DNA of 42,919 nt from Polyangiaceae bacterium (GTDB taxonomy: Bacteria > Myxococcota_A > Polyangia > Polyangiales > Polyangiaceae). The DNA is taken from assembly GCA_029261965.1 (NCBI GenBank), contig JAJDAH010000373.1, positions 1-42,919 of the forward strand, read 5' to 3'. This document shows, one piece after another, positions 8,389 to 36,615 of the stretch (position 1 is the first letter of the stretch; the number at the start of each line of letters is the position of its first letter). The notes under the pieces are model-generated. The model searched no databases. It worked only from the letters and a program-made list of their open reading frames with translations, and had not been told where the DNA came from. The position numbers and the translations under genes were made by a program.

Positions 8389-9768
8389 TTAGTCGTTGGA
8401 CTCTTGCCGCTCGTAGCGCTCGTAGCGCTCGAGCTTGCGGTACAAAGTTCGTCTATCGACGTCGAGGATCCTCGCAGCCTCGGTTTTGTTTCCGTCGACC
8501 GCGGCGAGCACTCGCATGATGTAGCGCTGCTCCACCTCTTCGAGCGGGAGTAGCTCGTCAGGATTGGCTCCCGCGACCACGACGTGCGTGCTCTGATGGT
8601 CACGAATCTTCTCGGGTAGATCGTCGGCCGTGATCTCTTCGAACCGCGCGAGCGCCATGCCGCGCTCGATGGTGTTCTCGAGCTCACGCACGTTGCCCGG
8701 CCAGTCGTAGTTCACGAGCATTTGCGCTGCCGGCGCCGCGATGCCGCGGACATTCTTCCCGCTCCGCGCGGCGATTCGATCGATGAAGTGTTGCGCGAGT
8801 AGCAAGACGTCGTTCCCGCGCGCTCGGAGCGGCGGCACCCTCAGACGGACCACGTTGATTCGGTAGTAGAGATCTTCTCGGAAGCGCCCCTCTTCCACGT
8901 CGGATTCGATGTCACGATTCGTCGCCGCGACGATACGGGTATCGAAAGCAATCTCCTCGGTACCGCCTACCGGGCGCACCTTTCGCTCCTGAAGGGCGCG
9001 GAGCAGCTTCACCTGCATCTCCGGGGCGGTCTCGGCAATCTCGTCGAGGAACAGAGTGCCGCCGCCCGCGCGGCGGAAGAGCCCATCCTTCGCGGTGCGC
9101 GCGTCGGTGAACGCGCCTTTCACATGGCCGAAGAGCTCGCTCTCGAGGAGGTTCTCCGGGAGGGCGGCGCAGTTGACCGGAACGAACGCGCCGTCCTTTC
9201 TCGTCGAGCGGTCGTGAAGTGCGCGCGCCACCAGCTCCTTTCCGGTGCCGCTCTGGCCGGTGATCAGCACGGAGGCGTCGCTGTCGCCGATTCGGTCGAT
9301 GAGATCGGCGAGCTTTTTCATGGCCGAGCTCTTACCGATGATGCCGGCGGGCATTCCCGCTCGGGCCACGGTGGCGCGCAGCCGCTCGACCTCCGCCGTC
9401 AGACGGCGCCTTTGAATCGCGCGCTCGACGATGTGGTCGAGTAGCTCGAGATCGACCGGTTTGGTGACGAAGTCGTCGGCCCCGGCGCGAATCGCGCCGA
9501 CGGCCGTTTCCATGCTTCCGAACGCCGTGATCACGATGACGGGCGTGCCCGGTCGATTCGTCGATACCCATTCGCTGATGGCGAGACCGCTATCGGTACC
9601 GATTTGTAGATCGGTAATGACCAAGTCGAAGTCTTGCCTCCGTAGGCATTCGAGCGCCGCGTCCACCGTCGATTCGGTCGTCACCGCATGCTCGCGCTTC
9701 TTCAGACGTGCCTCGACGAGATCGAGGATGCTTGGGTCGTCGTCGACGACGAGGATGGAGCTTTTCAT
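8389..9768 (-). CDS. NtrC-family sigma-54-dependent response regulator
   Basis: A 459-aa activator with three intact parts. The receiver domain (1-120) has the acidic pocket DDD at 9-11, phospho-acceptor Asp53 and Lys103. The AAA+ domain (about 144-372) has Walker A GQSGTGKE at 171-178, the sigma-54 contact loop as GAFTDA at 218-223 and Walker B GGTLFLDE around 237-243. A Fis-type helix-turn-helix lies at about 414-447 (NKTEAARILDVDRRTLYRKL). It should hydrolyse ATP to open sigma-54 promoters when phosphorylated. It is upstream of and parallel to mscS-nhaA and divergent from a histidine kinase 286 bp away. It is the best local candidate for the regulator of the sigma-54-like promoters listed here (inference). 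Confidence 0.95.
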   Translation of the reverse strand: MKSSILVVDDDPSILDLVEARLKKREHAVTTESTVDAALECLRRQDFDLVITDLQIGTDSGLAISEWVSTNRPGTPVIVITAFGSMETAVGAIRAGADDFVTKPVDLELLDHIVERAIQRRRLTAEVERLRATVARAGMPAGIIGKSSAMKKLADLIDRIGDSDASVLITGQSGTGKELVARALHDRSTRKDGAFVPVNCAALPENLLESELFGHVKGAFTDARTAKDGLFRRAGGGTLFLDEIAETAPEMQVKLLRALQERKVRPVGGTEEIAFDTRIVAATNRDIESDVEEGRFREDLYYRINVVRLRVPPLRARGNDVLLLAQHFIDRIAARSGKNVRGIAAPAAQMLVNYDWPGNVRELENTIERGMALARFEEITADDLPEKIRDHQSTHVVVAGANPDELLPLEEVEQRYIMRVLAAVDGNKTEAARILDVDRRTLYRKLERYERYERQESND

Positions 9769-9908: not shown

Positions 9909-10019
9909 TCGTCAGGACCCTGAAAGAAGGGAGGCTCGGCCTTGATCGATCGCCTGAGGAAAGGAGCGCCGTTTTCATCGATCCGAGACAACTCGGATAC
10001 CGAGGCGTTTTGTCACGGC

Positions 10020-10034
10020 GTGGCAAGATGCCAC
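10020..10034 (+). promoter_or_regulatory. Perfect 15-bp dyad before histidine kinase gene
   Basis: GTGGCAAGATGCCAC is a perfect inverted repeat with a 3-bp centre, extended by one C/G pair to 17 bp. Almost the same sequence occurs at 23246-23260. It lies 20 bp before the kinase ATG, a position that suits autoregulation or activation of the divergent pair. Confidence 0.6.
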
Positions 10035-10054
10035 GGTCGGTACCCAGGCGACTC

Positions 10055-10810
10055 ATGACGCACCCCAAGGACGGAGAGCGACAGACCGCGCAAGATCTTT
10101 CCGAGGTCTTGCACCTCGAGCGGTCGACTATGCTCAGGATTGTGGCGTCGAGTTTTGCTCACGCCGTGGGCACGCCAATACAGGTAATCAGCGGCCGCGC
10201 TACGATGGCGAACGACGCGGCGAGCCCGGAAGAGTTGCGGCAGCAGACCGACATCATCCGCCGCAAGTGCGACGAGCTGGCTCGAACGGTCCAATCGCTC
10301 GTCGGGTACGCGCGCGAGCAGGTGCCGACTGCCGAGCCGAGCGAGCTCGGGGACGTGCTGCTCGGCGTCGTCCGGGACATCGAACCCACCGCAGACGCGG
10401 CGTCCGTCGAAATCCGTCTCGGCGACCCGCCCCCAGTCCCTGCCGAAATCGTGAAGGCGTCGTTTGCGCAAGCCGTGCGCTGTCTGGTGCTCGGGGGCAT
10501 CGACATGTGTCGCGAAGTGGTCGGCGTCGCGCTCACTGAAGAGCAATGCTCGCCGCCCCCCACCGCTGCCGGGTTGGCGCAGCCAGGTCGTTTTGCCCAC
10601 GTCGAGATCGTTTGGCGCGGCGTCGGTCTCGAAGCCAAGACGCACGCGGAGCTCCGCGAGCCCTGGCTGCACGAGCCGTTCGCTTCCCGCTCCGCGGCGC
10701 TCTCGTTGGCTGTGGCGAGTGGACTCGTTCGGGAGAATGGCGGTTGGTTGAGCGCGGCGCCGAGCGCGGGCGGGGCCACCTTCGACATGTTCTGGCCACT
10801 CACCCGCTAG
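10055..10810 (+). CDS. Histidine-kinase-like protein with degraded ATP-binding domain
   Basis: A 251-aa soluble protein from ATG 10055, with no membrane segment or sensor domain. The dimerisation and phospho-acceptor helix is recognisable: FAHAVGTPIQVISGRA with His36, like the H-x-x-GTP boxes of myxobacterial kinases. In the catalytic half the usual signatures are eroded: the N-box region (about 135-150) has no asparagine, the G1 box reads RGVG at 188-191 instead of DxGxG, and the G2 region reads ALSLAV. ATP binding is therefore doubtful. It may be a phosphatase or a phosphotransfer protein rather than a kinase. It is divergent from the sigma-54 activator and next to two receiver proteins, so a phosphorelay role is plausible. 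Confidence 0.8.
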   Translation: MTHPKDGERQTAQDLSEVLHLERSTMLRIVASSFAHAVGTPIQVISGRATMANDAASPEELRQQTDIIRRKCDELARTVQSLVGYAREQVPTAEPSELGDVLLGVVRDIEPTADAASVEIRLGDPPPVPAEIVKASFAQAVRCLVLGGIDMCREVVGVALTEEQCSPPPTAAGLAQPGRFAHVEIVWRGVGLEAKTHAELREPWLHEPFASRSAALSLAVASGLVRENGGWLSAAPSAGGATFDMFWPLTR

Positions 10811-24410: not shown

Positions 24411-24959
24411 TCAAGCCTGCGCCTGAGTCGTGGTGACCCAACCCGATTCGAAGTTGTCTTCGCCGCTCCACAGTAGCGGACGACGCTCTTCATGCGGGAT
24501 CGGAACGACCAGTACGGGAACGGTCGAGCGCCGCACGACTCGCTCCGTACACGAGCCGATGAGCACGTCGGCCAAGCCGCTCCGCCCGTGGCTCGCCATC
24601 ACGATGAGGTCGTAGTCACCACTGGCGGTGAGGTCGAGGATCACTCGGGACGGAAGTCCCGCTTCGATTCGCCCGCGCACCGGTTCGACGTCGTGCGCCT
24701 CGACCTGGGCAATCGTGGCCACGAGCTTCGGGCCGCCGCGAGTTTTCATGAACTCGGCCATGAGCTTTTCTCGCATGTGCTCGGTTTCCTTCGCCGCCAC
24801 CGTGGCGATGATCGAGTCGAGCTCGAGCGGTGGCGACCAGACGTGGATCACGTCGACAGCGCTCTCGAAGCGGGCGGCAATGCTCGCGGCGTGGTCCGCG
24901 GCCATGTCGGAGCCGTTCGAAAAGTCGGTGGGAAACAAGATTCGGTCGATTCGAGTCAT
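24411..24959 (-). CDS. Universal stress protein (UspA family)
   Basis: 182 aa. The UspA fold is clear: RILFPTDFSNGSDMAADHA at the N-terminus and VMASHGRSGLADVLIGSCTERVVRRSTVPVLVVP at the end. The ATP-binding signature G-2x-G-9x-GS is present except that its first Gly is Ala (ASHG), so nucleotide binding may be altered. ATG 24959 is chosen as the MTRIDRIL start of the fold; the frame remains open upstream but has no similarity. A sigma-54-like promoter lies just upstream with a predicted 10-nt leader, and a strong palindrome about 42 bp further upstream. It is divergent from the OmpA-like gene. It is one of three USP genes in the window. Confidence 0.93.
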   Translation of the reverse strand: MTRIDRILFPTDFSNGSDMAADHAASIAARFESAVDVIHVWSPPLELDSIIATVAAKETEHMREKLMAEFMKTRGGPKLVATIAQVEAHDVEPVRGRIEAGLPSRVILDLTASGDYDLIVMASHGRSGLADVLIGSCTERVVRRSTVPVLVVPIPHEERRPLLWSGEDNFESGWVTTTQAQA

Positions 24960-24979
24960 GGATATCGGGGTCTGGCGAG

Positions 24980-24995
24980 TGCACGCGGTGTGCCA
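24980..24995 (-). promoter_or_regulatory. Sigma-54-like promoter of universal stress protein gene
   Basis: On the minus strand TGGCACACCGCGTGCA: TGGCAC perfect, GG (24994-24993), ten bases, GC (24982-24981), -12 element GTGCA. Predicted start about 24969, ten bases before the ATG. Confidence 0.65.
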
Positions 24996-25024
24996 GGGCC
25001 GCGTTGCCCGCGCGATCCCATGGC

Positions 25025-25045
25025 GGTGTGCACCGCTTGCACACC
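25025..25045. promoter_or_regulatory. Strong palindrome in divergent USP/OmpA region
   Basis: Arms GGTGTGCA (25025-25032) and TGCACACC (25038-25045) around five bases. The inner part GTGCA-N5-TGCAC matches the activator-site family seen at 32189-32203. It is about 42 bp upstream of the USP -24 element. A looser dyad TCGTGC/GCACGA lies at 25057-25077. Confidence 0.6.
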
Positions 25046-25070
25046 ACGACCCCCGCTCGTGCGCATGGCT

Positions 25071-25098
25071 TGCACGAACAGACGGCCTGTGTAATCTC
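25071..25098 (+). promoter_or_regulatory. Possible sigma-70 promoter of OmpA-like gene
   Basis: TTGCAC (25071-25076, with the preceding base pattern cTTGCAC) and TAATCT about 16 bases downstream, preceded by TGTG. Only partial agreement with the consensus; offered because no sigma-54 pattern points this way and a gene begins 30 bases on. Confidence 0.3.
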
Positions 25099-25100
25099 GG

Positions 25101-25116
25101 CCTCCTCACTAGGAGG
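25101..25116 (+). promoter_or_regulatory. Hairpin covering ribosome-binding site of OmpA-like gene
   Basis: CCTCCT (25101-25106) and AGGAGG (25111-25116) with loop CACT form a perfect 6-bp stem that would hide the Shine-Dalgarno sequence AGGAGGAGG (25111-25119) ten bases before the ATG. It could dampen or condition translation. A short stem like this would open readily with heat or ribosome binding. Confidence 0.5.
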
Positions 25117-25128
25117 AGGATCCCAAAA

Positions 25129-25656
25129 ATGAAGACTGGTTTTGCATATTTGTTGGCTGGTGTCGTGTTGATCGGCTGCTCGAAAAAGAACGCGCCGGTG
25201 CCCACCGCGCCCTCCGGGGGAGCCGATTCACCCGCGGCGACCGCCGAGGCGGCGGAGTTCCCGAACAAGGATCCAAAAAAGGCGAGCATTCGTATCTCGG
25301 ACCGCATCAAAGAAGCCTGCGGCTTGACCGACACTGACGCCTACTTCGAGTTCGACTCGGCGAAGATTTCCCCGGCGGCCGACGCGGTCCTGACCAAGCT
25401 CGCCGAGTGTTTCACCACCGGCCCCTTGAAGGAAGAAAACATGAAGCTGGTTGGCCACGCCGATCCGCGCGGCAGCGAAGAGTACAACCTCGCGCTCGGC
25501 GGTGACCGAGCAGAGAATGTGAAGTCCGTGCTGGGATCGAAGGGTCTCGCCGGCGACCGTGCAACGACGACGTCGCGCGGCGAGCTCGAGGCGACCGGCA
25601 CCGACGAAGCGACCTGGGCTCAAGACCGCCGCGTCGACGTCAAGATCGACGAGTAA
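25129..25656 (+). CDS. OmpA-like (Pal-type) peptidoglycan-binding lipoprotein
   Basis: 175 aa. The signal MKTGFAYLLAGVVLIGCSKK has lipobox LIGC. A Pro/Ala linker leads to an OmpA-C domain: YFEFDSAKISPAA, VGHADPRGSEEYNLALGGDRAENV with the Asp and Arg that hold diaminopimelate, and TSRGE near the end. It anchors the outer membrane to the cell wall. The start ATG follows an unusually strong AGGAGGAGG, partly hidden in a hairpin. The YihY gene begins 8 nt after its stop, so they may be co-transcribed. Confidence 0.92.
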   Translation: MKTGFAYLLAGVVLIGCSKKNAPVPTAPSGGADSPAATAEAAEFPNKDPKKASIRISDRIKEACGLTDTDAYFEFDSAKISPAADAVLTKLAECFTTGPLKEENMKLVGHADPRGSEEYNLALGGDRAENVKSVLGSKGLAGDRATTTSRGELEATGTDEATWAQDRRVDVKIDE

Positions 25657-27847: not shown

Positions 27848-28687
27848 TCAAGGCCGCGGGGGGATGGACACCACCAGCGAGGTGGGATCGAGCGTGCGGT
27901 CCACGGCGAGCGCGTTGCCAAGGGGATCGAAGATGCCGCTTCCTACGCCTTCACCATCGCTCGCGTTCGACGCGACGACATAGACCCCCCAGTCGCGCGC
28001 AAACGCCGCCTGCCATCGCGTGGCGCCCGCCGCTGTCCAAAACGACGAGACCGCCACGACGCGCGCTCCCTGGGCGAGCTTCTGGTGGAGATCGGTGTCT
28101 CCGTAGAGGTCGGCGCAAATCAACAGGCCCACATCGCCGACCGGCGTGTCGAAGGTCGTCACCGAGCTGCCGGCGGTCAGGGCGTTTTTCTCTCCCTGGA
28201 ACAGCTCGAACTTGTGGTGCTTGCCGACTACGCCACCGTTCGGGCCGAAGGCGACTTGTGTATTGAACTGTTGCTCGCCGTCGGTCGTCTGCAGGTCGAT
28301 GACGAGGTGGATGTCGAGCTCGTCGGCGAGTTTGCCGAAGTGCGTCTGGAGCGGCGCGACTCGGTCGTCGCTCACCGTCGCGCCGACGTCGGGATCCGGC
28401 TCCGAGCCCACCTGGTCGAAGGCGTACTCCGGCGTGACGACGAGCGACGCTCCCTCCGCCCGCGCGCGACGGACGAGCGCCTCGACGGCGCAAGCCGACG
28501 TCGTGCACGAGCTGTCCACGGCCCGCGGCGTGCCCAGGTAATGGATCGCGGCGACTCGAAGATCGGTGGGTTCGAGTGGATCGTTTTCGGTTTTGCTGCA
28601 CGCCCCGAGAACGAGCAAGGCGCAAATCGACGCCCCTGTCCGGTTGGGCGGACGATCAGTTCGTACGGACGCAGCGAAAGCCCACAT
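27848..28687 (-). CDS. Carbon-nitrogen hydrolase (nitrilase superfamily) lipoprotein
   Basis: 279 aa. An N-terminal lipoprotein signal (ICALLVLGAC, Cys30) is followed by a complete nitrilase fold with the catalytic triad Glu87 (TPEYAF), Lys159 (HHKFELF) and Cys191 (LLICADLYGD). The KFELF and ICADLYGD pattern is closer to the vanin/biotinidase branch than to cytoplasmic amidases, suggesting an amide-cleaving enzyme outside the inner membrane. The start overlaps the preceding SUMF1-like gene by 32 bp, and this is the last gene of the HPF-TerC-USP operon. Export of such an enzyme from a stress operon is unusual. Confidence 0.88.
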   Translation of the reverse strand: MWAFAASVRTDRPPNRTGASICALLVLGACSKTENDPLEPTDLRVAAIHYLGTPRAVDSSCTTSACAVEALVRRARAEGASLVVTPEYAFDQVGSEPDPDVGATVSDDRVAPLQTHFGKLADELDIHLVIDLQTTDGEQQFNTQVAFGPNGGVVGKHHKFELFQGEKNALTAGSSVTTFDTPVGDVGLLICADLYGDTDLHQKLAQGARVVAVSSFWTAAGATRWQAAFARDWGVYVVASNASDGEGVGSGIFDPLGNALAVDRTLDPTSLVVSIPPRP

Positions 28688-29498
28688 AGCTCAGTCGTTT
28701 GTTCGGCGGCAGCGGGTTACGCATGGCCGACCGGAGGTGATGGGCATTATGATACCAGGAGCCGCCCCGAGCGACTCGATCCGTGCGCTTCGGTGAGAAC
28801 CAGGTGTCCGTCCACTCGTAGACGTTTCCGGCCATGTCGTGCAGGCCCCAGTCGTTTTTCTCCGTCCTGCCGACGGGATGGCTACGGCCCGCCGAGCTCG
28901 CTTTGTACCAACCTATGCGATCGCCGGTGGCGTCTCGGCCCATGCACGACTCGATTGCGCCGACGTAGGTCGCGCCCTCGGTACCGGCGCGGGCGGCGTA
29001 CTCCCACTCGATTTCGGTCGGAAGCCGGTAGCCCTTGCAGGCCGCCTGCGTCTCCTTCCGAGGCTCGCAGCGGGTCGCTGCTTCGGAGCTGGTGCATTGG
29101 TAGCAGGGTTCGCGCTCGTTCTTACGCGACAAGGCGTTGCAGTACGCGGCCGCCTCGTGGTGGGTCACGCTGTCCACCGGGCAGCGAGCGCAGGCGCGTC
29201 GAAAAGACGGGTTGTAGCCGAGTAGGCTTTCAAAAGAGGCTTGGGTCACCTCGTGCGCCGAGATTTCGAACGCCCGCTCCACGCTGATTTCTGCTTGTTT
29301 CTCGTGGTCGTCCCGACACTTCTCGGTGGCGGGTGACCCCATGCGGAAGCTACCGGGTTCAATCGAGATCCACGTCTCCACGGCCGTGGCCGGATCGGCG
29401 GATCTGGTCGTGCTCGGCGTTGGCCCGCTCGGCTCGTCATCGCAGGCGAGCAGAAGCGTCATGGCCGCGACGGCTGCGCCCCGGGTGGCGACGGGCAT
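28656..29498 (-). CDS. SUMF1/formylglycine-generating-enzyme-like lipoprotein
   Basis: 280 aa. Signal with lipobox LLLAC and a Ser/Thr/Pro linker, then an FGE-sulfatase fold: PGSFRMGSP, VEISAHEVTQASFE-type first strands, GYRLPTEIEWEYAARAG, GLHDMAGNVYEWT and RGGSW...VGFRCVR. Extra cysteine pairs (ACARC, CYQC) suggest disulfides. Family members modify sulfatases or act as binding or scaffold proteins; many myxobacterial copies are not enzymes. ATG 29498 directly follows the USP stop, so it belongs to the same operon. Confidence 0.9.
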   Translation of the reverse strand: MPVATRGAAVAAMTLLLACDDEPSGPTPSTTRSADPATAVETWISIEPGSFRMGSPATEKCRDDHEKQAEISVERAFEISAHEVTQASFESLLGYNPSFRRACARCPVDSVTHHEAAAYCNALSRKNEREPCYQCTSSEAATRCEPRKETQAACKGYRLPTEIEWEYAARAGTEGATYVGAIESCMGRDATGDRIGWYKASSAGRSHPVGRTEKNDWGLHDMAGNVYEWTDTWFSPKRTDRVARGGSWYHNAHHLRSAMRNPLPPNKRLSYVGFRCVRTN

Positions 29499-30964: not shown

Positions 30965-31408
30965 TTATCGAAGAGTGGCGTATCTACCCGATCTCCGGGG
31001 CGTCGCGGCCCTCCCCGGGAGCTCGGTCGGCCCACTCACCATCAGCTCCTTGGCCAGCCGCTGGACGTCTTCCCGTCGCCGCATTTCCCGGCGCAGTGCG
31101 GCGCTCGCACGTTCGGCGGCATTGTCGATGGCGCCGATGGCGCTCGAGTCGGCCCCCTCGACGTCGACGGGGGAACCGCCGTTTGCTCGAACGTGGATAC
31201 TGCACCGCACCGCGTGCGGGTGGCTGCGGGCGGTCTGGCGTTCGACGCGCACGTGCACCGATTGAAGGCCGCGCCACAACCGGCCAAGCGCAAACTGAAT
31301 GCGGCGAGCCGCATGCGCTCTGATCGCCACGTGGTCGTCCAAACCACCACCACGCACATCGACTCGGATCGCGGGGGACGAACCGGTCGGAGGAATCGAG
31401 TCTTCCAT
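30965..31408 (-). CDS. HPF/RaiA-family ribosome-associated protein
   Basis: 147 aa. An S30AE-type beta-alpha-beta-beta-beta-alpha domain is apparent: HAARRIQFALGRLWRGLQSVHVRVER, then CSIHVRANGGSPVDVEGADSSAIGAIDNAAERASAALRRE. It should bind the 30S decoding region and inactivate ribosomes in stress or stationary phase; with no long C-terminal dimerisation domain it is of the short type, with a basic tail instead. ATG 31408 has an ideal AGGAGG 6 nt upstream. It is the first gene of a five-gene operon behind a sigma-54-like promoter. Confidence 0.83.
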   Translation of the reverse strand: MEDSIPPTGSSPAIRVDVRGGGLDDHVAIRAHAARRIQFALGRLWRGLQSVHVRVERQTARSHPHAVRCSIHVRANGGSPVDVEGADSSAIGAIDNAAERASAALRREMRRREDVQRLAKELMVSGPTELPGRAATPRRSGRYATLR

Positions 31409-31449: not shown

Positions 31450-31465
31450 AGCAAACGCCGTGCCC
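31450..31465 (-). promoter_or_regulatory. Sigma-54-like promoter of HPF-TerC-USP operon
   Basis: On the minus strand GGGCACGGCGTTTGCT: GGCACG and TTGCT both perfect, GG (31464-31463), ten bases, GC (31452-31451). Predicted start about 31439, leaving a 31-nt leader that contains AGGAGG. It begins a few bases after the terminator of the upstream lipoprotein gene. No clear dyad site is visible at the usual distance. Confidence 0.7.
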
Positions 31466-31470
31466 GAGCG

Positions 31471-31513
31471 ACAAAAAGGCGACAGCCCCCGCCAGGGACG
31501 CGCGGGGGCTGTC
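31471..31513 (-). terminator. Rho-independent terminator of acidic lipoprotein gene
   Basis: Arms GACAGCCCCCGC (31481-31492) and GCGGGGGCTGTC (31502-31513) form a perfect 12-bp stem with a 9-base loop; on the minus strand it is followed by CCTTTTT. It lies 22 bp after the stop of the acidic lipoprotein gene. Confidence 0.9.
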
Positions 31514-31535
31514 TAGCTTCATACCTCGTCGGTGA

Positions 31536-31817
31536 CTATTCGAATTCGGCCTCGAGCTCGGGATCGTCGGCTTGCTCGTCGGGCTCGTCGGCTTCGTCGT
31601 CCGCCTCTTCCGCCTCTTCCGCCTCTTCCGGCTCATCGGCACCGGACTTGTCGTCGGGAGTCGCGGGGGCGGCGGGTTTTGCCGCGGGCTCCGCGGGCAT
31701 CGATGGTTTGTTTTCGGCAGAGGCCGGGGCGTCGCTGCTGACGTTTTGTTTGCTGCAAGCCGTCAGGAGCAGAAAGGAGCCGGCCAGGATGCTCGTGGCC
31801 CAGAGCTTGTATGACAT
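31536..31817 (-). CDS. Small acidic lipoprotein
   Basis: 93 aa from ATG 31817. Signal MSYKLWATSILAGSFLLLTAC with lipobox LTAC, then an Ala/Pro-rich linker and a tail made almost only of Glu, Asp and Ala (EEAEEAEEADDEADEPDE). The tail would be extended and strongly negative, perhaps binding cations at the envelope. No family. ATG 31838 is possible, but 31817 starts the signal directly. It has its own sigma-54-like promoter (31886-31901) and a strong terminator, so it is a single-gene unit. Confidence 0.82.
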   Translation of the reverse strand: MSYKLWATSILAGSFLLLTACSKQNVSSDAPASAENKPSMPAEPAAKPAAPATPDDKSGADEPEEAEEAEEADDEADEPDEQADDPELEAEFE

Positions 31818-31885
31818 TTGTCGATTCCTCCGAGGCATCGTGCCTCATCTACCGGAGCGAATGCCCGGTTCGGTATTCAGTCCAA

Positions 31886-31901
31886 AGCATGGGTCGTGCC
31901 A
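31886..31901 (-). promoter_or_regulatory. Sigma-54-like promoter of acidic lipoprotein gene
   Basis: On the minus strand TGGCACGACCCATGCT: TGGCACG perfect, GG (31900-31899), ten bases, GC (31888-31887), -12 ATGCT. Predicted start about 31875 with a 58-nt leader. It lies just beyond the 67-aa gene. Confidence 0.7.
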
Positions 31902-31915
31902 TGGGCTCGCCGGAC

Positions 31916-32119
31916 TCAGATGTCGTCGTCGGTGACCGCTTCTAGGACTCCGTCGAGCAACAAGAAGTGCTTCTCGAGTCCAAGCCGCAGGCGCCGGACG
32001 TCGGAGGCGGTTCGTGGCTCGAGCGGACCGGACCTTTCGTCGAGCTGTCGCGCGATCTCCATGAGGCGGCGACCATCGGCCCGGAGCTTGCTCGTCACGA
32101 CTTGGGAAACCTCGACCAT
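31916..32119 (-). CDS. 67-aa helical protein
   Basis: 67 aa, almost entirely helical by sequence (KLRADGRRLMEIARQLDERSG ... DVRRLRLGLEKHFLLLDGVLEAV) with an acidic end TDDDI. No family recognised. The best sigma-54 match in the window is directly upstream, and its predicted start falls one base before the ATG, so a leaderless message is likely; GTG 32098, with GAGG upstream, is an alternative start. It is divergent from the DUF4240-like gene and shares its enhancer region. Confidence 0.65.
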   Translation of the reverse strand: MVEVSQVVTSKLRADGRRLMEIARQLDERSGPLEPRTASDVRRLRLGLEKHFLLLDGVLEAVTDDDI

Positions 32120-32130
32120 GAACCGTCATC

Positions 32131-32146
32131 AGCAAGCGCGGTGCCA
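32131..32146 (-). promoter_or_regulatory. Consensus sigma-54 promoter of 67-aa protein gene
   Basis: On the minus strand TGGCACCGCGCTTGCT, an exact match to TGGCAC-N5-TTGCW with GG at 32145-32144 and GC at 32133-32132. Predicted start about 32120, one base before the ATG at 32119. Confidence 0.78.
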
Positions 32147-32187
32147 AACGCGGACAGCGGCAGGGAGCCATGCTCTGGGTCGGCGAA

Positions 32188-32225
32188 CGTGCAGCTTCTG
32201 CACGGCGAGCGTGCAGCCCCTGCAC
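32188..32225. promoter_or_regulatory. Tandem palindromic activator sites
   Basis: Two palindromes: CGTGCAGCTTCTGCACG (32188-32204) and GTGCAGCCCCTGCAC (32211-32225). Both have the form GTGCAG-N3-CTGCAC, and their centres are 22 bp apart, two helical turns, so bound dimers would lie on the same face. They sit between two outward-facing sigma-54-like promoters, 50-85 bp from each, which is textbook enhancer geometry. Confidence 0.75.
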
Positions 32226-32278
32226 AATGCGAGGTCGAGCTGGGCTCTACGCCACACCGCCGGCGTTTCGCCCGCGGT

Positions 32279-32294
32279 TGGCACGGCTTGTGCT
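32279..32294 (+). promoter_or_regulatory. Sigma-54-like promoter of DUF4240-USP operon
   Basis: TGGCACGGCTTGTGCT: TGGCACG perfect, GG (32280-32281), ten bases, GC (32292-32293), -12 GTGCT. Predicted start about 32305, one base before ATG 32306. Confidence 0.72.
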
Positions 32295-32305
32295 CTCGCC
32301 GGGGC

Positions 32306-32869
32306 ATGTACATCCAGGAAATCGCCAAGGGTAGGCGGGGCGTGACTCGGCGGGCTCGCCGAGACTCGAAGGACATTCGGCTCGGCCTCAAGCGAATTCG
32401 CGGTGCCGTGGACAGCGCGGACGTGACGGACCTCTTCGAGCCATGGGTGCGACAGTTGGACAGGGCCGGCGTCGAGAAGGTGCGCGAGCAGCTCGAGCAG
32501 GTACTCGACGACGCGTGCCAACCCGACCTCTGGGGAGCGCTTCAGGTGCTCTGTCCCGATGAGCCGCAAACGCAGTTCAATGGATTTCGGATCTGGCTCG
32601 CGGCCCAGGGCCGGATGACCTTCGACTCCGTGCTCGGCGAGCCAGAGCTCTTGTCGGAGGTGCTCGACGATTCGGACGTCCCGGACTTCCAGGCGTTCGA
32701 CGAGGTCTTGACGATTCTCGACGAGGCGTTCGAGGAGAAAACCGGAAGCGCCCCGCCACCCTTCTATTTTTCGACCATCGAGGATTTCAGCGACGAAACG
32801 GGCTGGGAGACGATGGACGACGAAGAAGCTCAGGAGAAATTTCCGTCGTTGTGGGAGAGTCGACGCTAG
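32306..32869 (+). CDS. DUF4240-like protein
   Basis: 187 aa from ATG 32306. A basic N-terminus (RRGVTRRARRDSKDIRLGLKRIRG) is followed by a helical domain with DLWGALQVL and FNGFRIWLAAQGRMTFDSVLGEP, which resembles the DUF4240 pattern (a Trp-Ala segment then FRxWLxxqGxxxFxxxLxxPd). The end is very acidic. The function of DUF4240 is unknown; it often occurs in regulatory or stress settings. GTG 32342, with AGG upstream, is an alternative start if the message is not leaderless. The USP gene follows after 48 bp. Confidence 0.72.
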   Translation: MYIQEIAKGRRGVTRRARRDSKDIRLGLKRIRGAVDSADVTDLFEPWVRQLDRAGVEKVREQLEQVLDDACQPDLWGALQVLCPDEPQTQFNGFRIWLAAQGRMTFDSVLGEPELLSEVLDDSDVPDFQAFDEVLTILDEAFEEKTGSAPPPFYFSTIEDFSDETGWETMDDEEAQEKFPSLWESRR

Positions 32870-32917: not shown

Positions 32918-33562
32918 ATGACCACCAAACCCAGCATCATCGTCCTCGGAATCGACTACTCGGACTCGAGCGGCCTGGCGTTCGAGGAAGCGCTTTCTCT
33001 CGCTACGGCTCGGACGAGCCTTCACGCGGTGCACGTGTTCGACCACGCCGATCCGATGGGGCTCACCCAGGTCGCGTGGCAAATAGACCCTGCCAAGCAC
33101 GAGGAGGAAACCAAGAAACTCCGCGAGCACGTGCTCGACCTAGCTCGATTGCACGCGCGCAAGGTCGGCGCGATCCCGAATCTCGACAGCATCTACGCCC
33201 ACGTGCGAATCGGCAACGCCGACGAGCACATCGTTCAGCTCGCCAACGATCTCGGCGCCACGATGATCATCATCGGCAGCCACGGCCGCCGCGGGCTCAG
33301 GCGCTTGCTCGTCGGATCCATCGCCGAGCGCGTCGTTCGCCTCGCGCTTTGCCCCGTTCTGGTCGTGAAAACCCGCGAGGTGCAGGGCCGAGCACCGGTG
33401 CCTCGGCTCGAGACGCCTTGCGACGACTGCAGCAAGATCCGAGAAAGCTCCGCCGGCGAGCAATTGTTCTGTGCGGAGCACACGGCGCGGACGGACCGAG
33501 CTCACCTATCCATCGCCGTCGGCGATCTCGAAGAGCCAGGGTCGACAGACCGCAGCGGATGA
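32918..33562 (+). CDS. Universal stress protein with Cys/His C-terminal extension
   Basis: 214 aa. The first 150 residues are a canonical UspA domain, with IIVLGIDYSDSSGLAFEEAL and the complete ATP signature GSHGRRGLRRLLVGS at 120-134. The extra 60 residues contain Cys168-x2-Cys171 and Cys185-x2-His188, spaced like a small zinc-binding knuckle. This extension is not part of ordinary USPs and could sense metal or redox state. The gene is between the DUF4240-like and sulfatase-fold genes (48 and 13 bp gaps), probably one operon. Confidence 0.94.
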   Translation: MTTKPSIIVLGIDYSDSSGLAFEEALSLATARTSLHAVHVFDHADPMGLTQVAWQIDPAKHEEETKKLREHVLDLARLHARKVGAIPNLDSIYAHVRIGNADEHIVQLANDLGATMIIIGSHGRRGLRRLLVGSIAERVVRLALCPVLVVKTREVQGRAPVPRLETPCDDCSKIRESSAGEQLFCAEHTARTDRAHLSIAVGDLEEPGSTDRSG

Positions 33563-33575
33563 TCCGAAGCCGCCC

Positions 33576-35612
33576 GTGTCAGCCCCCCAACAATCCCCAG
33601 GCGCTCTAGGCGCCTTCTCGCAGGCCTCACTCGCTCACGAGTCTCGGCAGACACCGGCGGGCGCTTGGTCCGTCGGAGCTTTCGCCAGCGAGGCGCGGCC
33701 GCTCCCCGTCTGGATGGCGGCGTTCATCTGGGCAAGCTGTCTCGGAGCAATCAGCGCGGGGGCGACGATGCTGCCGACGGCCGACGCCGGTCGACCCGTT
33801 GGCGCGCTGCACTATCTCTATGACGGTGGCTACCACCTAGCGCTCGGCGTGGCGTGCGCTGGCCTCGCCTGGGGGTGGCGTCGGACCCTCGGATCTCGAA
33901 AGTGGTCGGCCTACGTCGGCATCGCCGCCGTCGTTGCTCTCGCGGCCCCGTTCACTCTGAGCTTCGAGCTGTCGAGCACGGCGTTTCGCCTCGCGCCCCA
34001 GGCCGCCGAGCTCGTGCTCGGGTTGCTCGTTGGGGCCGTCGCGGTGGTTTTCGCGGCGTCGGCGTGGGTCTCCGTCGTCTTCGCGCGCCGCGGGCTTCGG
34101 GCCGTTCCTTTTCTGGGCGCTCTCGGGGTGGCTGCGGCCAACCACTACGTGCTCGCCAACGACTACCCCGCGGTGCACCTGTACCTCGGCGCGGCGTCTC
34201 TCGTCGTCGGCACCGCCGCGCTCGGCGGGATCCGCGTCCGCTTCGAACCGAGCAAGAAGCTGCTCCTCGCCGTTGCCGCCGCCGGGGCGCTGGCCGTGGC
34301 CATCCCGCCGAGCAACGCGACACTGCTCGGTTTACTTCGGGTGCAGGGGGCGTTCGTGACGCCATACGTTGCGCGCGTTTCGTTTCCGGGCGGCGCTGAG
34401 AACGCGACGATTCCGCCCTCGTCGATGCCTTGGTTCGCCGATCGCAAAAACGCCCCGGCGGTCGCCGCGTCGCTCCCCGGCCTGCTGCCGACCGACGGCG
34501 TCGTCGTCGTCTTCGTGACGGTGGATTCGCTTCGCGCCGACGTGCTCCACGGTCGCGAGTACGACACGGTCCTGCCGAATCTCGCGCGCCTTCGCGACGA
34601 ATCCGTCACGTTCACGAACGCCAGAACCCCGGGCTCTCAGACCGTGGTCACCCTCGCGGAGGTGTTTGCCGGTCGCTACTACTCGCAGCTCCGGTGGGCA
34701 TCCCATCCCGACATGCCGCCCCACGATTTCTGGCCGCACCGCGACCCGAGCCCGCGCTTCCCCGAGCTTCTGCGCGACCGGGGAGTTCGCACTACCGCCC
34801 ACGTCGGCGCCACCTGGCTGCTCTCGGCGCAAGGCATCACCCGCGGCTTCGATGAAGAAACCTTCCCGAAGCCCGAGCGCCGTCGCTACGCCACCACCGC
34901 GGAGCTGTTTTCCTCGATGGAGAAAAGCCTCGACCGAGGCGGTCCCGCATTTCTTTTTGCGCACCTGCTAGATGCCCACGCCACCGTCCGGCTCCGTTCG
35001 AAAGACGCCGGTCATCACGAGCGCTACATCGACAACCTCGCCGTCGTCGACGAGCAGCTCGGCGCGCTCCGAAAAAAGGTCGAGTCGCTCGGGCTCGCCC
35101 AAAAATGCGTGTGGATCATCAGCTCCGACCATGGCGAAGCGTTCGGCGAGCACAAAGCTTTTGGCCACGGCGTGACTCTGTACGACGAGCTCTTGCGAGT
35201 GCCGCTCCTCCTCCACGTTCCCGGCCGAGCTCCCCGTGTCGTCCACGAGCCCGTCTCCATCATCGACGTCGGTCCGACGGTGCTCGACCTCTTCGGTCTC
35301 CCGACGCCGGGCACCATGATGGGCCAAAGCCTCACCGATTTCGCCCGCGGCCGAACCCCAGAGCTAACGAGACCCATCGTCGCCGAAGGCCGATTAAAAA
35401 AAGCCATGGTCTTCCCCGACGGCCACAAGGTCATCGTCGACGACCGCCACCACGTCGCGGAGGTCTACGACCTCGACACCGATCCCGGTGAGCTCCACAA
35501 CCTGCTCGACTCCGAAGACGCGGAGGCGTGGAAGTACGTCGGCCTCTTGAGAAAGTTCTTCGGGGCGCACACTCTGTGGCGCATCGGCTACCGCGCGCCG
35601 TATCGGCGATAG
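33576..35612 (+). CDS. Sulfatase/alkaline-phosphatase-fold membrane protein
   Basis: About 678 aa from GTG 33576, 13 bp after the USP stop. Six or more membrane helices occupy about residues 45-265. The soluble part is of the sulfatase superfamily: VVFVTVDSLRADVLHG, NLARLRDESVTFTNARTPGSQT, ISSDHGEAFGEHKAFGHG and PLLLHVPG. The CxPxR/SxPxR motif needed for formylglycine is absent; a Ser or Thr in TPGSQTVVT is the likely nucleophile. This resembles membrane phosphoglycerol or phosphoethanolamine transferases more than sulfatases. It probably modifies an envelope glycan or lipid, but the substrate is unknown. Confidence 0.85.
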   Translation: MSAPQQSPGALGAFSQASLAHESRQTPAGAWSVGAFASEARPLPVWMAAFIWASCLGAISAGATMLPTADAGRPVGALHYLYDGGYHLALGVACAGLAWGWRRTLGSRKWSAYVGIAAVVALAAPFTLSFELSSTAFRLAPQAAELVLGLLVGAVAVVFAASAWVSVVFARRGLRAVPFLGALGVAAANHYVLANDYPAVHLYLGAASLVVGTAALGGIRVRFEPSKKLLLAVAAAGALAVAIPPSNATLLGLLRVQGAFVTPYVARVSFPGGAENATIPPSSMPWFADRKNAPAVAASLPGLLPTDGVVVVFVTVDSLRADVLHGREYDTVLPNLARLRDESVTFTNARTPGSQTVVTLAEVFAGRYYSQLRWASHPDMPPHDFWPHRDPSPRFPELLRDRGVRTTAHVGATWLLSAQGITRGFDEETFPKPERRRYATTAELFSSMEKSLDRGGPAFLFAHLLDAHATVRLRSKDAGHHERYIDNLAVVDEQLGALRKKVESLGLAQKCVWIISSDHGEAFGEHKAFGHGVTLYDELLRVPLLLHVPGRAPRVVHEPVSIIDVGPTVLDLFGLPTPGTMMGQSLTDFARGRTPELTRPIVAEGRLKKAMVFPDGHKVIVDDRHHVAEVYDLDTDPGELHNLLDSEDAEAWKYVGLLRKFFGAHTLWRIGYRAPYRR

Positions 35613-35662: not shown

Positions 35663-35787
35663 GAGGCGCGGCATGGTCCGGTGTGCGGATCTGCGAACTA
35701 GCGCCCGCCCAGGATGTCCGACCCATCAGTCGAGACATCCTCGTACTCGCCGACAGGCTGCGCCGTGGTAGCGTTACTCCGCGTTCC

Positions 35788-36615
35788 GTGAAGCAGCAAC
35801 CGACAGAGCCGATTCGAGTTTTCGTCGTCGGCCCCCCTCGCTGCGGAACATCGATCGTCGGCTTGGCGCTGGGACGAGTGCTCGATGCGAGCGCCTACGC
35901 CGAGGGGCACATGATGCCGTACTTCGCCCAGGTGCACGCGCAGATGCTCTCGGCTTTCGAAAGGCTCCCCGCCAGAGAGTTTCCTGAAATGCTCGCTGCG
36001 GTGACCAACAAGGACCAGCTCGACGCAGAATTTCGAAGTCTGGTTCAGAGGTTCTACGATCGCGCGTACCGAGGCGGCAATGTCGTGGACAAGACCCCGA
36101 GCCTCGATGCCGTTCGGGCGGTACCCTTCATTCACCAGACGTTTCCGAACGCGCGATTCGTCTTCTGCTACCGCCGTGCCCTCGAGAACGTCGAGTCGAG
36201 GCTGAGAAAGTGGCCGGCGGTCGCCTTCGAGACCCACTGCAGCGAGTGGGGCGAGATCATGAGCACGTGGCGCAGGGTTCGAGCCGAGCTCGAGCCCCAC
36301 CAGTTCTGGGAGGTCGAGATTCACCGGTTGTTTCTCGATCCCACAGGCGAAGCGATCCGGCTCCGGAACCTCGTCGGTGGCGTGGAGGATGACGTGGCGG
36401 TGATTCGCGACACGTTGACGGAGGAGAAGCCCTCGATGATCGCCGGATCCGAAGTCGGCCGCGTCCTCGACCTCGACTCGATGAGCTGGTCCAGCCACCA
36501 ACGAACCACGTTCCTCAAGTTCTGCCAGACCGAGCTCGACTGGTGGGGCTACACCCTAGACCACCGATACTTCGCGGATCAGGCGAGCCCGGGGCCGTCC
36601 ATCCCTGCCGACTGA
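35788..36615 (+). CDS. Sulfotransferase family protein
   Basis: About 275 aa from GTG 35788 (MKQQPTEPIRV). The PAPS-binding 5'-phosphosulfate loop is VFVVGPPRCGTSIVGLAL, followed by NVVDKTPSLDAVRAVPFIHQTFPNARFVFCYRR, where the Arg and a following Ser-rich helix would bind the 3'-phosphate. It should transfer sulfate from PAPS to a sugar or other acceptor. A GTG at 35683 would add 35 residues without similarity. It is convergent with a glycosyltransferase gene 4 bp away, so it fits a surface-polysaccharide locus. Confidence 0.88.
   Translation: MKQQPTEPIRVFVVGPPRCGTSIVGLALGRVLDASAYAEGHMMPYFAQVHAQMLSAFERLPAREFPEMLAAVTNKDQLDAEFRSLVQRFYDRAYRGGNVVDKTPSLDAVRAVPFIHQTFPNARFVFCYRRALENVESRLRKWPAVAFETHCSEWGEIMSTWRRVRAELEPHQFWEVEIHRLFLDPTGEAIRLRNLVGGVEDDVAVIRDTLTEEKPSMIAGSEVGRVLDLDSMSWSSHQRTTFLKFCQTELDWWGYTLDHRYFADQASPGPSIPAD

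Follow-up and report, generated by a model that had tools for sequence, protein, structure and literature searches.

The question raised by this locus is whether one short intergenic region holds a single enhancer that serves sigma-54 promoters facing both ways and, if so, which activator would occupy it. The window, that is, the whole 42,919-nucleotide stretch of Polyangiaceae DNA analysed here, contains a 186-bp gap (32120-32305) between two divergent genes. A preliminary description had placed in this gap an exact outward sigma-54 promoter on the left, a near-consensus one on the right and two palindromes 22 bp apart between them. These elements are all recovered, as are the flanking genes that it named:

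32132-32146, minus strand: sigma-54 promoter TGGCACCGCGCTTGC, exact consensus with 0 mismatches
32279-32293, plus strand: sigma-54 promoter TGGCACGGCTTGTGC, 1 mismatch
32189-32203, no strand assigned: enhancer site 1 GTGCAGCTTCTGCAC, of the form GYGCA-N5-TGCRC; a perfect palindrome with the core of the published NmpR site
32211-32225, no strand assigned: enhancer site 2 GTGCAGCCCCTGCAC, a perfect palindrome
31916-32119, minus strand: 67-aa gene, predicted target of the leftward promoter; predicted two-helix hairpin; ATG at +1/+2, probably leaderless
32306-32869, plus strand: DUF4240 gene, predicted target of the rightward promoter; Pfam DUF4240, E 6.8e-12; probably leaderless

The 67-aa ORF had no match in a Pfam search, and the protein folded alone is predicted to form a helical hairpin (pLDDT 81). 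A literature search for DUF4240 found no paper.

The geometry of the gap is that of a divergent sigma-54 unit: the activator sites lie between two outward -24/-12 promoters. Both palindromes are perfect GTGCAG-N3-CTGCAC dyads, spaced 22 bp start to start, and they also form a 22-bp direct repeat. The leftward promoter is 42 bp from the nearer palindrome and the rightward promoter 53 bp from its own nearer palindrome (site 2), a difference of 11 bp, or one helical turn; both promoters are intergenic and lie within the ~100 bp of the sites that an NmpR-type enhancer would call for. The centre of site 1 stands at about -76 from the left start and -109 from the right; for site 2 the values are about -98 and -87.

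This layout recurs elsewhere. The 67-aa protein has one paralog in the genome (G000:C336:13652-13840, minus strand; 38-39% identical), and upstream of it stand an exact sigma-54 promoter, TGGCACTCGATTTGC, and two relaxed-form GYGCA-N5-TGCRC sites exactly 22 bp apart, with a promoter gap of 41 bp. TTGGCAC-N5-TTGCTGATGACG is kept between this promoter and the leftward promoter of the window; across the alignment, the -24, the -12 with 8 following bases and the site cores are largely kept, and the bases between them mostly differ. Sigma-54 promoters with a tandem enhancer, as the preliminary description proposed, are thus strongly supported: the layout is found at C336 and in other genomes with gaps of 41-42 bp, and the site core is that of NmpR. 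No rightward promoter can be recognised at the C336 locus, so that two-way control may be a feature of the window locus alone. As for loss of the palindromes while the genes stay, which had been named as the observation that would count against the unit, both sites are retained at the 67-aa paralog; a search of 59 relatives found no close homologs of the 67-aa and DUF4240 genes of the window, and the homologs present there are too scarce or too divergent to allow footprinting.

A further shared feature is the position of the start codon. In both window genes and in the C336 paralog, the ATG lies exactly 12 nt after the C of the -12 element. At a sigma-54 promoter, an ATG at this distance would fall at about +1 to +2, and both window mRNAs are probably leaderless. 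Among family promoters, an ATG at offset 12-14 occurs in 12 of 30, versus 1.5 expected (P ~7e-9). Because control sites that lack the palindrome show it too (9/43 with an ATG at 13-14), the leaderless trait may be general to the sigma-54 promoters of the family. It is not shared by every member of the presumed regulon: predicted leaders of ~10 to 70 nt follow the Usp, OmpA-type, lipoprotein and HPF-like promoters. Among the titles and abstracts returned by literature searches on leaderless transcripts with sigma-54 or Myxococcus, none dealt with such transcripts from sigma-54 promoters in myxobacteria.

How readily could such an arrangement arise by chance? With GG and GC required to be intact and at most 1 mismatch allowed, the window holds 7 sigma-54 matches, versus ~2 in Markov sequences; four of the seven fall inside 850 bp (31451-32293), a clustering reached in 0/180 simulations. 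One palindrome by itself is no rarity in the genome (6 exact copies vs 5 in the control), and the degenerate tandem alone, at 3 mismatches, is not enriched in the genome (20 vs 21 in the reversed control). Across 108 family genomes, the tandem-22 pattern alone likewise shows no excess over the reversed control, and the informative matches are only those with a promoter at ~41 bp. The coupling of site to sigma-54 promoter, however, is not chance: in pattern searches of this draft genome of 480 contigs, the 9.6 Mb hold 5 cases of a promoter with a perfect GYGCA-N5-TGCRC site 18-62 bp away, with 3 of these in the window and 4/5 on either the window contig or C336.

Other elements of the same kind lie in the window:

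31887-31901, minus strand: sigma-54 promoter TGGCACGACCCATGC, 1 mismatch, upstream of the acidic lipoprotein gene
31536-31818, minus strand: small acidic lipoprotein gene, recognised from its sequence
31451-31465, minus strand: sigma-54-like promoter GGGCACGGCGTTTGC of the S30AE/HPF-like gene, 1 mismatch
24981-24995, minus strand: sigma-54 promoter TGGCACACCGCGTGC of the Usp gene (ATG at 24959)
25028-25042, no strand assigned: enhancer site GTGCACCGCTTGCAC; distance to the Usp promoter 32 bp
25061-25075, no strand assigned: a further enhancer site GCGCATGGCTTGCAC; 33 bp from the preceding one and 65 bp from the Usp promoter, upstream of the OmpA-type gene

The lipoprotein promoter has no enhancer site of its own and is ~290 bp from the tandem sites; the sites at 32189 and 32211 possibly serve it too, and the lipoprotein gene is a possible regulon member. 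A similar lipoprotein gene in another genome (G035, locus L038; likeness judged by eye) has its own tandem-22 enhancer. The promoter of the short S30AE (HPF/sigma-54 modulation) gene at 30965-31408 lies 42 nt ahead of it, and the gene has a clear AGGAGG. At 24414-25653, the Usp gene (minus strand) and the OmpA-type lipoprotein gene (25129, plus strand) diverge around two NmpR-type sites. This OmpA-type gene is 60% identical to one on C336, where the promoter has sites at 19, 41 and 62 bp. In the family relatives of the OmpA-type lipoprotein whose upstream DNA was read, there was no tandem enhancer, so that among the OmpA-type genes covered such sites are seen only at the paralogs in this genome. 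Formylglycine-generating-enzyme-like, sulfatase and sulfotransferase genes (28656-29498, 33471-35612 and 35683-36615) flank the stress genes.

The motif GYGCA-N5-TGCRC was derived from the sequence before the NmpR literature was known to match. NmpR is a low-oxygen NtrC-like activator of Myxococcus xanthus with the site GCGCA-N5-TGCGC; gel shifts and reporters show that it drives the sigma-54 promoters of low-oxygen genes, and its targets include its own operon, a Usp, CBS, oxidase and hemerythrin genes and another EBP gene, pilR (PMC11841059). At 5/7 bound promoters the sites are separated by 14-15 nt, and at the others by 5 and 24 nt (PMC11841059). Both window sites carry the GCA-N5-TGC core. 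Neither has the full consensus: they read GTGCA-N5-TGCAC, with one deviation per half-site, and the separations are 7 nt in the gap and 18 nt at 25028/25061 rather than 14-15 nt. In the 108 family genomes, promoter plus site occurs ~3-fold over the reversed control, and the promoter-to-site gaps show a period of 10.5-11 bp. Twenty downstream family ORFs were scanned and include 2 hemerythrins, 2 CBS proteins, 1 cytochrome oxidase subunit (COX1), 2 flavodoxin-like proteins, 1 pyruvate:ferredoxin oxidoreductase (POR) and 1 ferredoxin-domain protein (Fer4). Taken together, the NmpR core, the 3-fold coupling, the gap period and the low-oxygen-type genes suggest that the motif probably marks an NmpR-like low-oxygen regulon in the family Polyangiaceae too.

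Like the NmpR enhancers of M. xanthus (McAllister et al. 2025, PMC11841059), the unit has paired inverted GCA-N5-TGC sites upstream of -24/-12 promoters, a Usp among the candidate targets and an NtrC-type activator that would control its own operon. Unlike them, it has half-sites that are mostly GTGCA, not GCGCA, inter-site distances of 7 or 18 nt versus mostly 14-15 (also 5 and 24), a probable activator that is a paralog with a degenerate receiver, and one enhancer between two promoters (PMC11841059). At zraP/zraSR, the NtrC-type activator ZraR likewise controls a pair of divergent sigma-54 promoters that share an intergenic region (PMC4987338, PMC3844500); neither gene flanking the gap (67-aa ORF, DUF4240) encodes the activator, however, and the flanking genes differ in this comparison of layout and gene content. 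The back-to-back sigma-54 promoters of hyc/hyp under FhlA in E. coli and Salmonella (PMC3844500), again served by one activator, compare at the level of layout but differ in activator class and physiology. Enterobacterial NtrC sites, TGCACC(A/T)4TGGTGCA (PMC4987338), are likewise dyads with TGCA elements, but these elements stand wider apart than in the window sites and the dyad geometry differs.

The genome encodes ~50 sigma-54 activators. Of the 30 with loci read (a few helix-turn-helix (HTH) segments being unreadable), 2 have an NmpR-type HTH; a third activator is the only one found in the window:

G000:C336:10412-11947: EBP-B, NmpR paralog with a degenerate receiver
C142:23863-25236: EBP with an NmpR-type HTH
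8392-9768: EBP-A, NtrC-like with an intact receiver, divergent from a HisKA-domain gene (10010-10807)

An NmpR gene would be expected to have a globin-coupled sensor kinase encoded close by; the C142 protein lies near the only protoglobin gene of the genome (domain C142:20653-21108) and is provisionally taken as the NmpR ortholog. EBP-B has the features of an NtrC-type activator: an AAA+ domain with GAFTGA, a Fis-type HTH and an ancestry in common with NmpR orthologs. In the tree, a single clade holds EBP-B with its orthologs, and the NmpR orthologs join it with 100/98 support. Throughout this EBP-B clade the receiver has lost the phosphorylation residues; that of EBP-B falls below the Pfam cut-off and, by inspection, lacks the acidic pair, the phospho-acceptor Asp and the conserved Lys. 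Only 2 proteins in the genome match EBP-B at E <1e-120, itself included.

On C336, the 67-aa paralog, a gamma-glutamyltranspeptidase gene and EBP-B follow one another on the same strand, such that EBP-B apparently stands in an operon behind the paralogous sigma-54 promoter. The apparent operon (C336 5894-13622, locus L053) contains genes for the gamma-glutamyltranspeptidase, EBP-B, a D-ala-D-ala-ligase-like ATP-grasp protein, a second gamma-glutamyltranspeptidase and an N-formylglutamate amidohydrolase. In G035, the EBP-B ortholog and a small acidic lipoprotein gene diverge, and the DNA separating them holds two sites 22 bp apart with a promoter 41 bp away. The EBP-B orthologs in G073, G074, G120, G121, G005 and G118, some of them on short contigs, show no tandem-22 enhancer with promoter in the available DNA. 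A search of genome contigs for EBP-B gave one clear relative, in the Sandaracinaceae MAG MED-G138 (56%), which has no tandem sites.

The spacing of paired sites mostly differs between the neighbourhoods of the two NmpR-type activators. In NmpR neighbourhoods, spacings of 19-20 bp occur 13 times, 29-31 bp 13 times, 21 bp once and 22-23 bp not at all, while in EBP-B neighbourhoods 19-20 bp is absent, 21-23 bp occurs 7 times, 29-30 bp twice and 33 bp twice; these counts are not independent, since single genomes or groups of related genomes contribute more than one of them. Thirty promoters picked regardless of spacing gave 19 bp in 10 cases, 20 bp in 1, 30-31 bp in 6 and 22 bp in none. The nmpR promoter region of this genome has a 19-bp spacing, and the published M. 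xanthus gaps of 14-15 nt and 5 nt correspond to spacings of 29-30 and 20 bp. In genomes whose best match is NmpR only (L048, L050, L051), a few pairs spaced 22 bp stand 40-41 bp from a promoter. EBP-B is favoured over NmpR mainly because spacings of 22/33 bp track EBP-B genes and 19-20/29-31 bp track NmpR.

On this evidence, the gap is probably a functional and probably bidirectional NmpR-type sigma-54 unit. That it is a two-way unit with tandem sites, run most likely by EBP-B and with a role under low oxygen or energy limitation, is the reading we consider rather likely from the sequence comparisons. Two activator dimers bound to the tandem GYGCA-N5-TGCRC sites would build one AAA+ ring. Via short DNA looping, this ring would open RNA polymerase-sigma54 at the leftward promoter, for the 67-aa gene, and the same ring would open the rightward promoter, for the DUF4240 gene, one helical turn further off; both mRNAs would begin at or beside the ATG. 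That one enhancer serves both directions had been part of the preliminary description: the geometry and the ATG offset of 12 fit it, and from these we infer the two-way action itself. Because the EBP-B gene apparently belongs to an operon that the paralogous promoter precedes, EBP-B probably activates its own synthesis. The Usp, HPF-like, lipoprotein and OmpA-type genes nearby suggest that the unit may form part of a low-oxygen or energy-limitation response.

Two alternatives concern the architecture. Only the leftward promoter might be real, with the rightward match incidental and DUF4240 driven by another promoter; the C336 paralog keeps the leftward half only, and the rightward promoter has 1 mismatch and a 53-bp gap. 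Against this, ~2 matches are expected per 43 kb, so that one in the correct place and orientation is improbable by chance; the rightward gap is exactly 42 + 11 bp; and the rightward ATG is at offset 12, as it is leftward and in the family. This alternative appears distinctly unlikely. Still more remote, and the least probable reading of all, is that the palindromes are operators of an unrelated regulator at sigma-70 promoters, or RNA hairpins, with the sigma-54 matches due to chance. Perfect dyads can presumably be operators, and high G+C would raise the number of chance GGCAC/TTGC matches, yet none of the results obtained speaks for this reading: the spacing and promoter gap recur at C336 and G035, the motif is that of a proven sigma-54 activator site (NmpR), and no T-tract follows the dyads.

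The other two alternatives keep the bidirectional unit and change its activator. The putative NmpR ortholog on C142 could bind the enhancer, EBP-B being merely another target or irrelevant: the core motif is that of NmpR, the genome has both a protoglobin gene and this NmpR-type EBP, and in M. xanthus activation of another EBP gene by NmpR has a precedent in pilR (PMC11841059). Sites of the NmpR type, however, read GCGCA-N5-TGCGC with a spacing of 19-20 or 29-31 bp, and the nmpR promoter of this genome is no exception. Among the sites described here, which cluster near EBP-B genes, GTGCA at a spacing of 22 or 33 bp predominates; we regard this assignment as unlikely. Within the window, EBP-A alone was recognised as a sigma-54 activator, and it has an intact receiver, but its HTH, DRRTLYRKLERY, is unlike the NmpR/EBP-B type, it lies far off in the tree, outside their clade, and its gene is not flanked by tandem sites with a promoter, which makes it a very improbable activator. 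The EBP-A gene adjoins an ORF similar to the MscS gene of C336.

With EBP-B retained as the most likely activator and the putative NmpR ortholog of C142 as the alternative, a more specific proposal can be made tentatively, at somewhat less than even confidence: NmpR and EBP-B are kept apart by pair spacing (19/30 vs 22/33 bp, a uniform 3-bp shift), and EBP-B is a phosphorylation-free, autoregulated activator of a small, partly leaderless regulon that acts in two directions here. If true, a duplicated enhancer-binding protein would have gained a separate regulon via the spacing of its sites rather than mainly via their sequence. The frequent start codon 12-14 nt past the -12 element predicts sigma-54-driven leaderless mRNAs across the family. 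If the reading of the unit is right, NmpR low-oxygen control would reach beyond Myxococcus into a further large family related to it.
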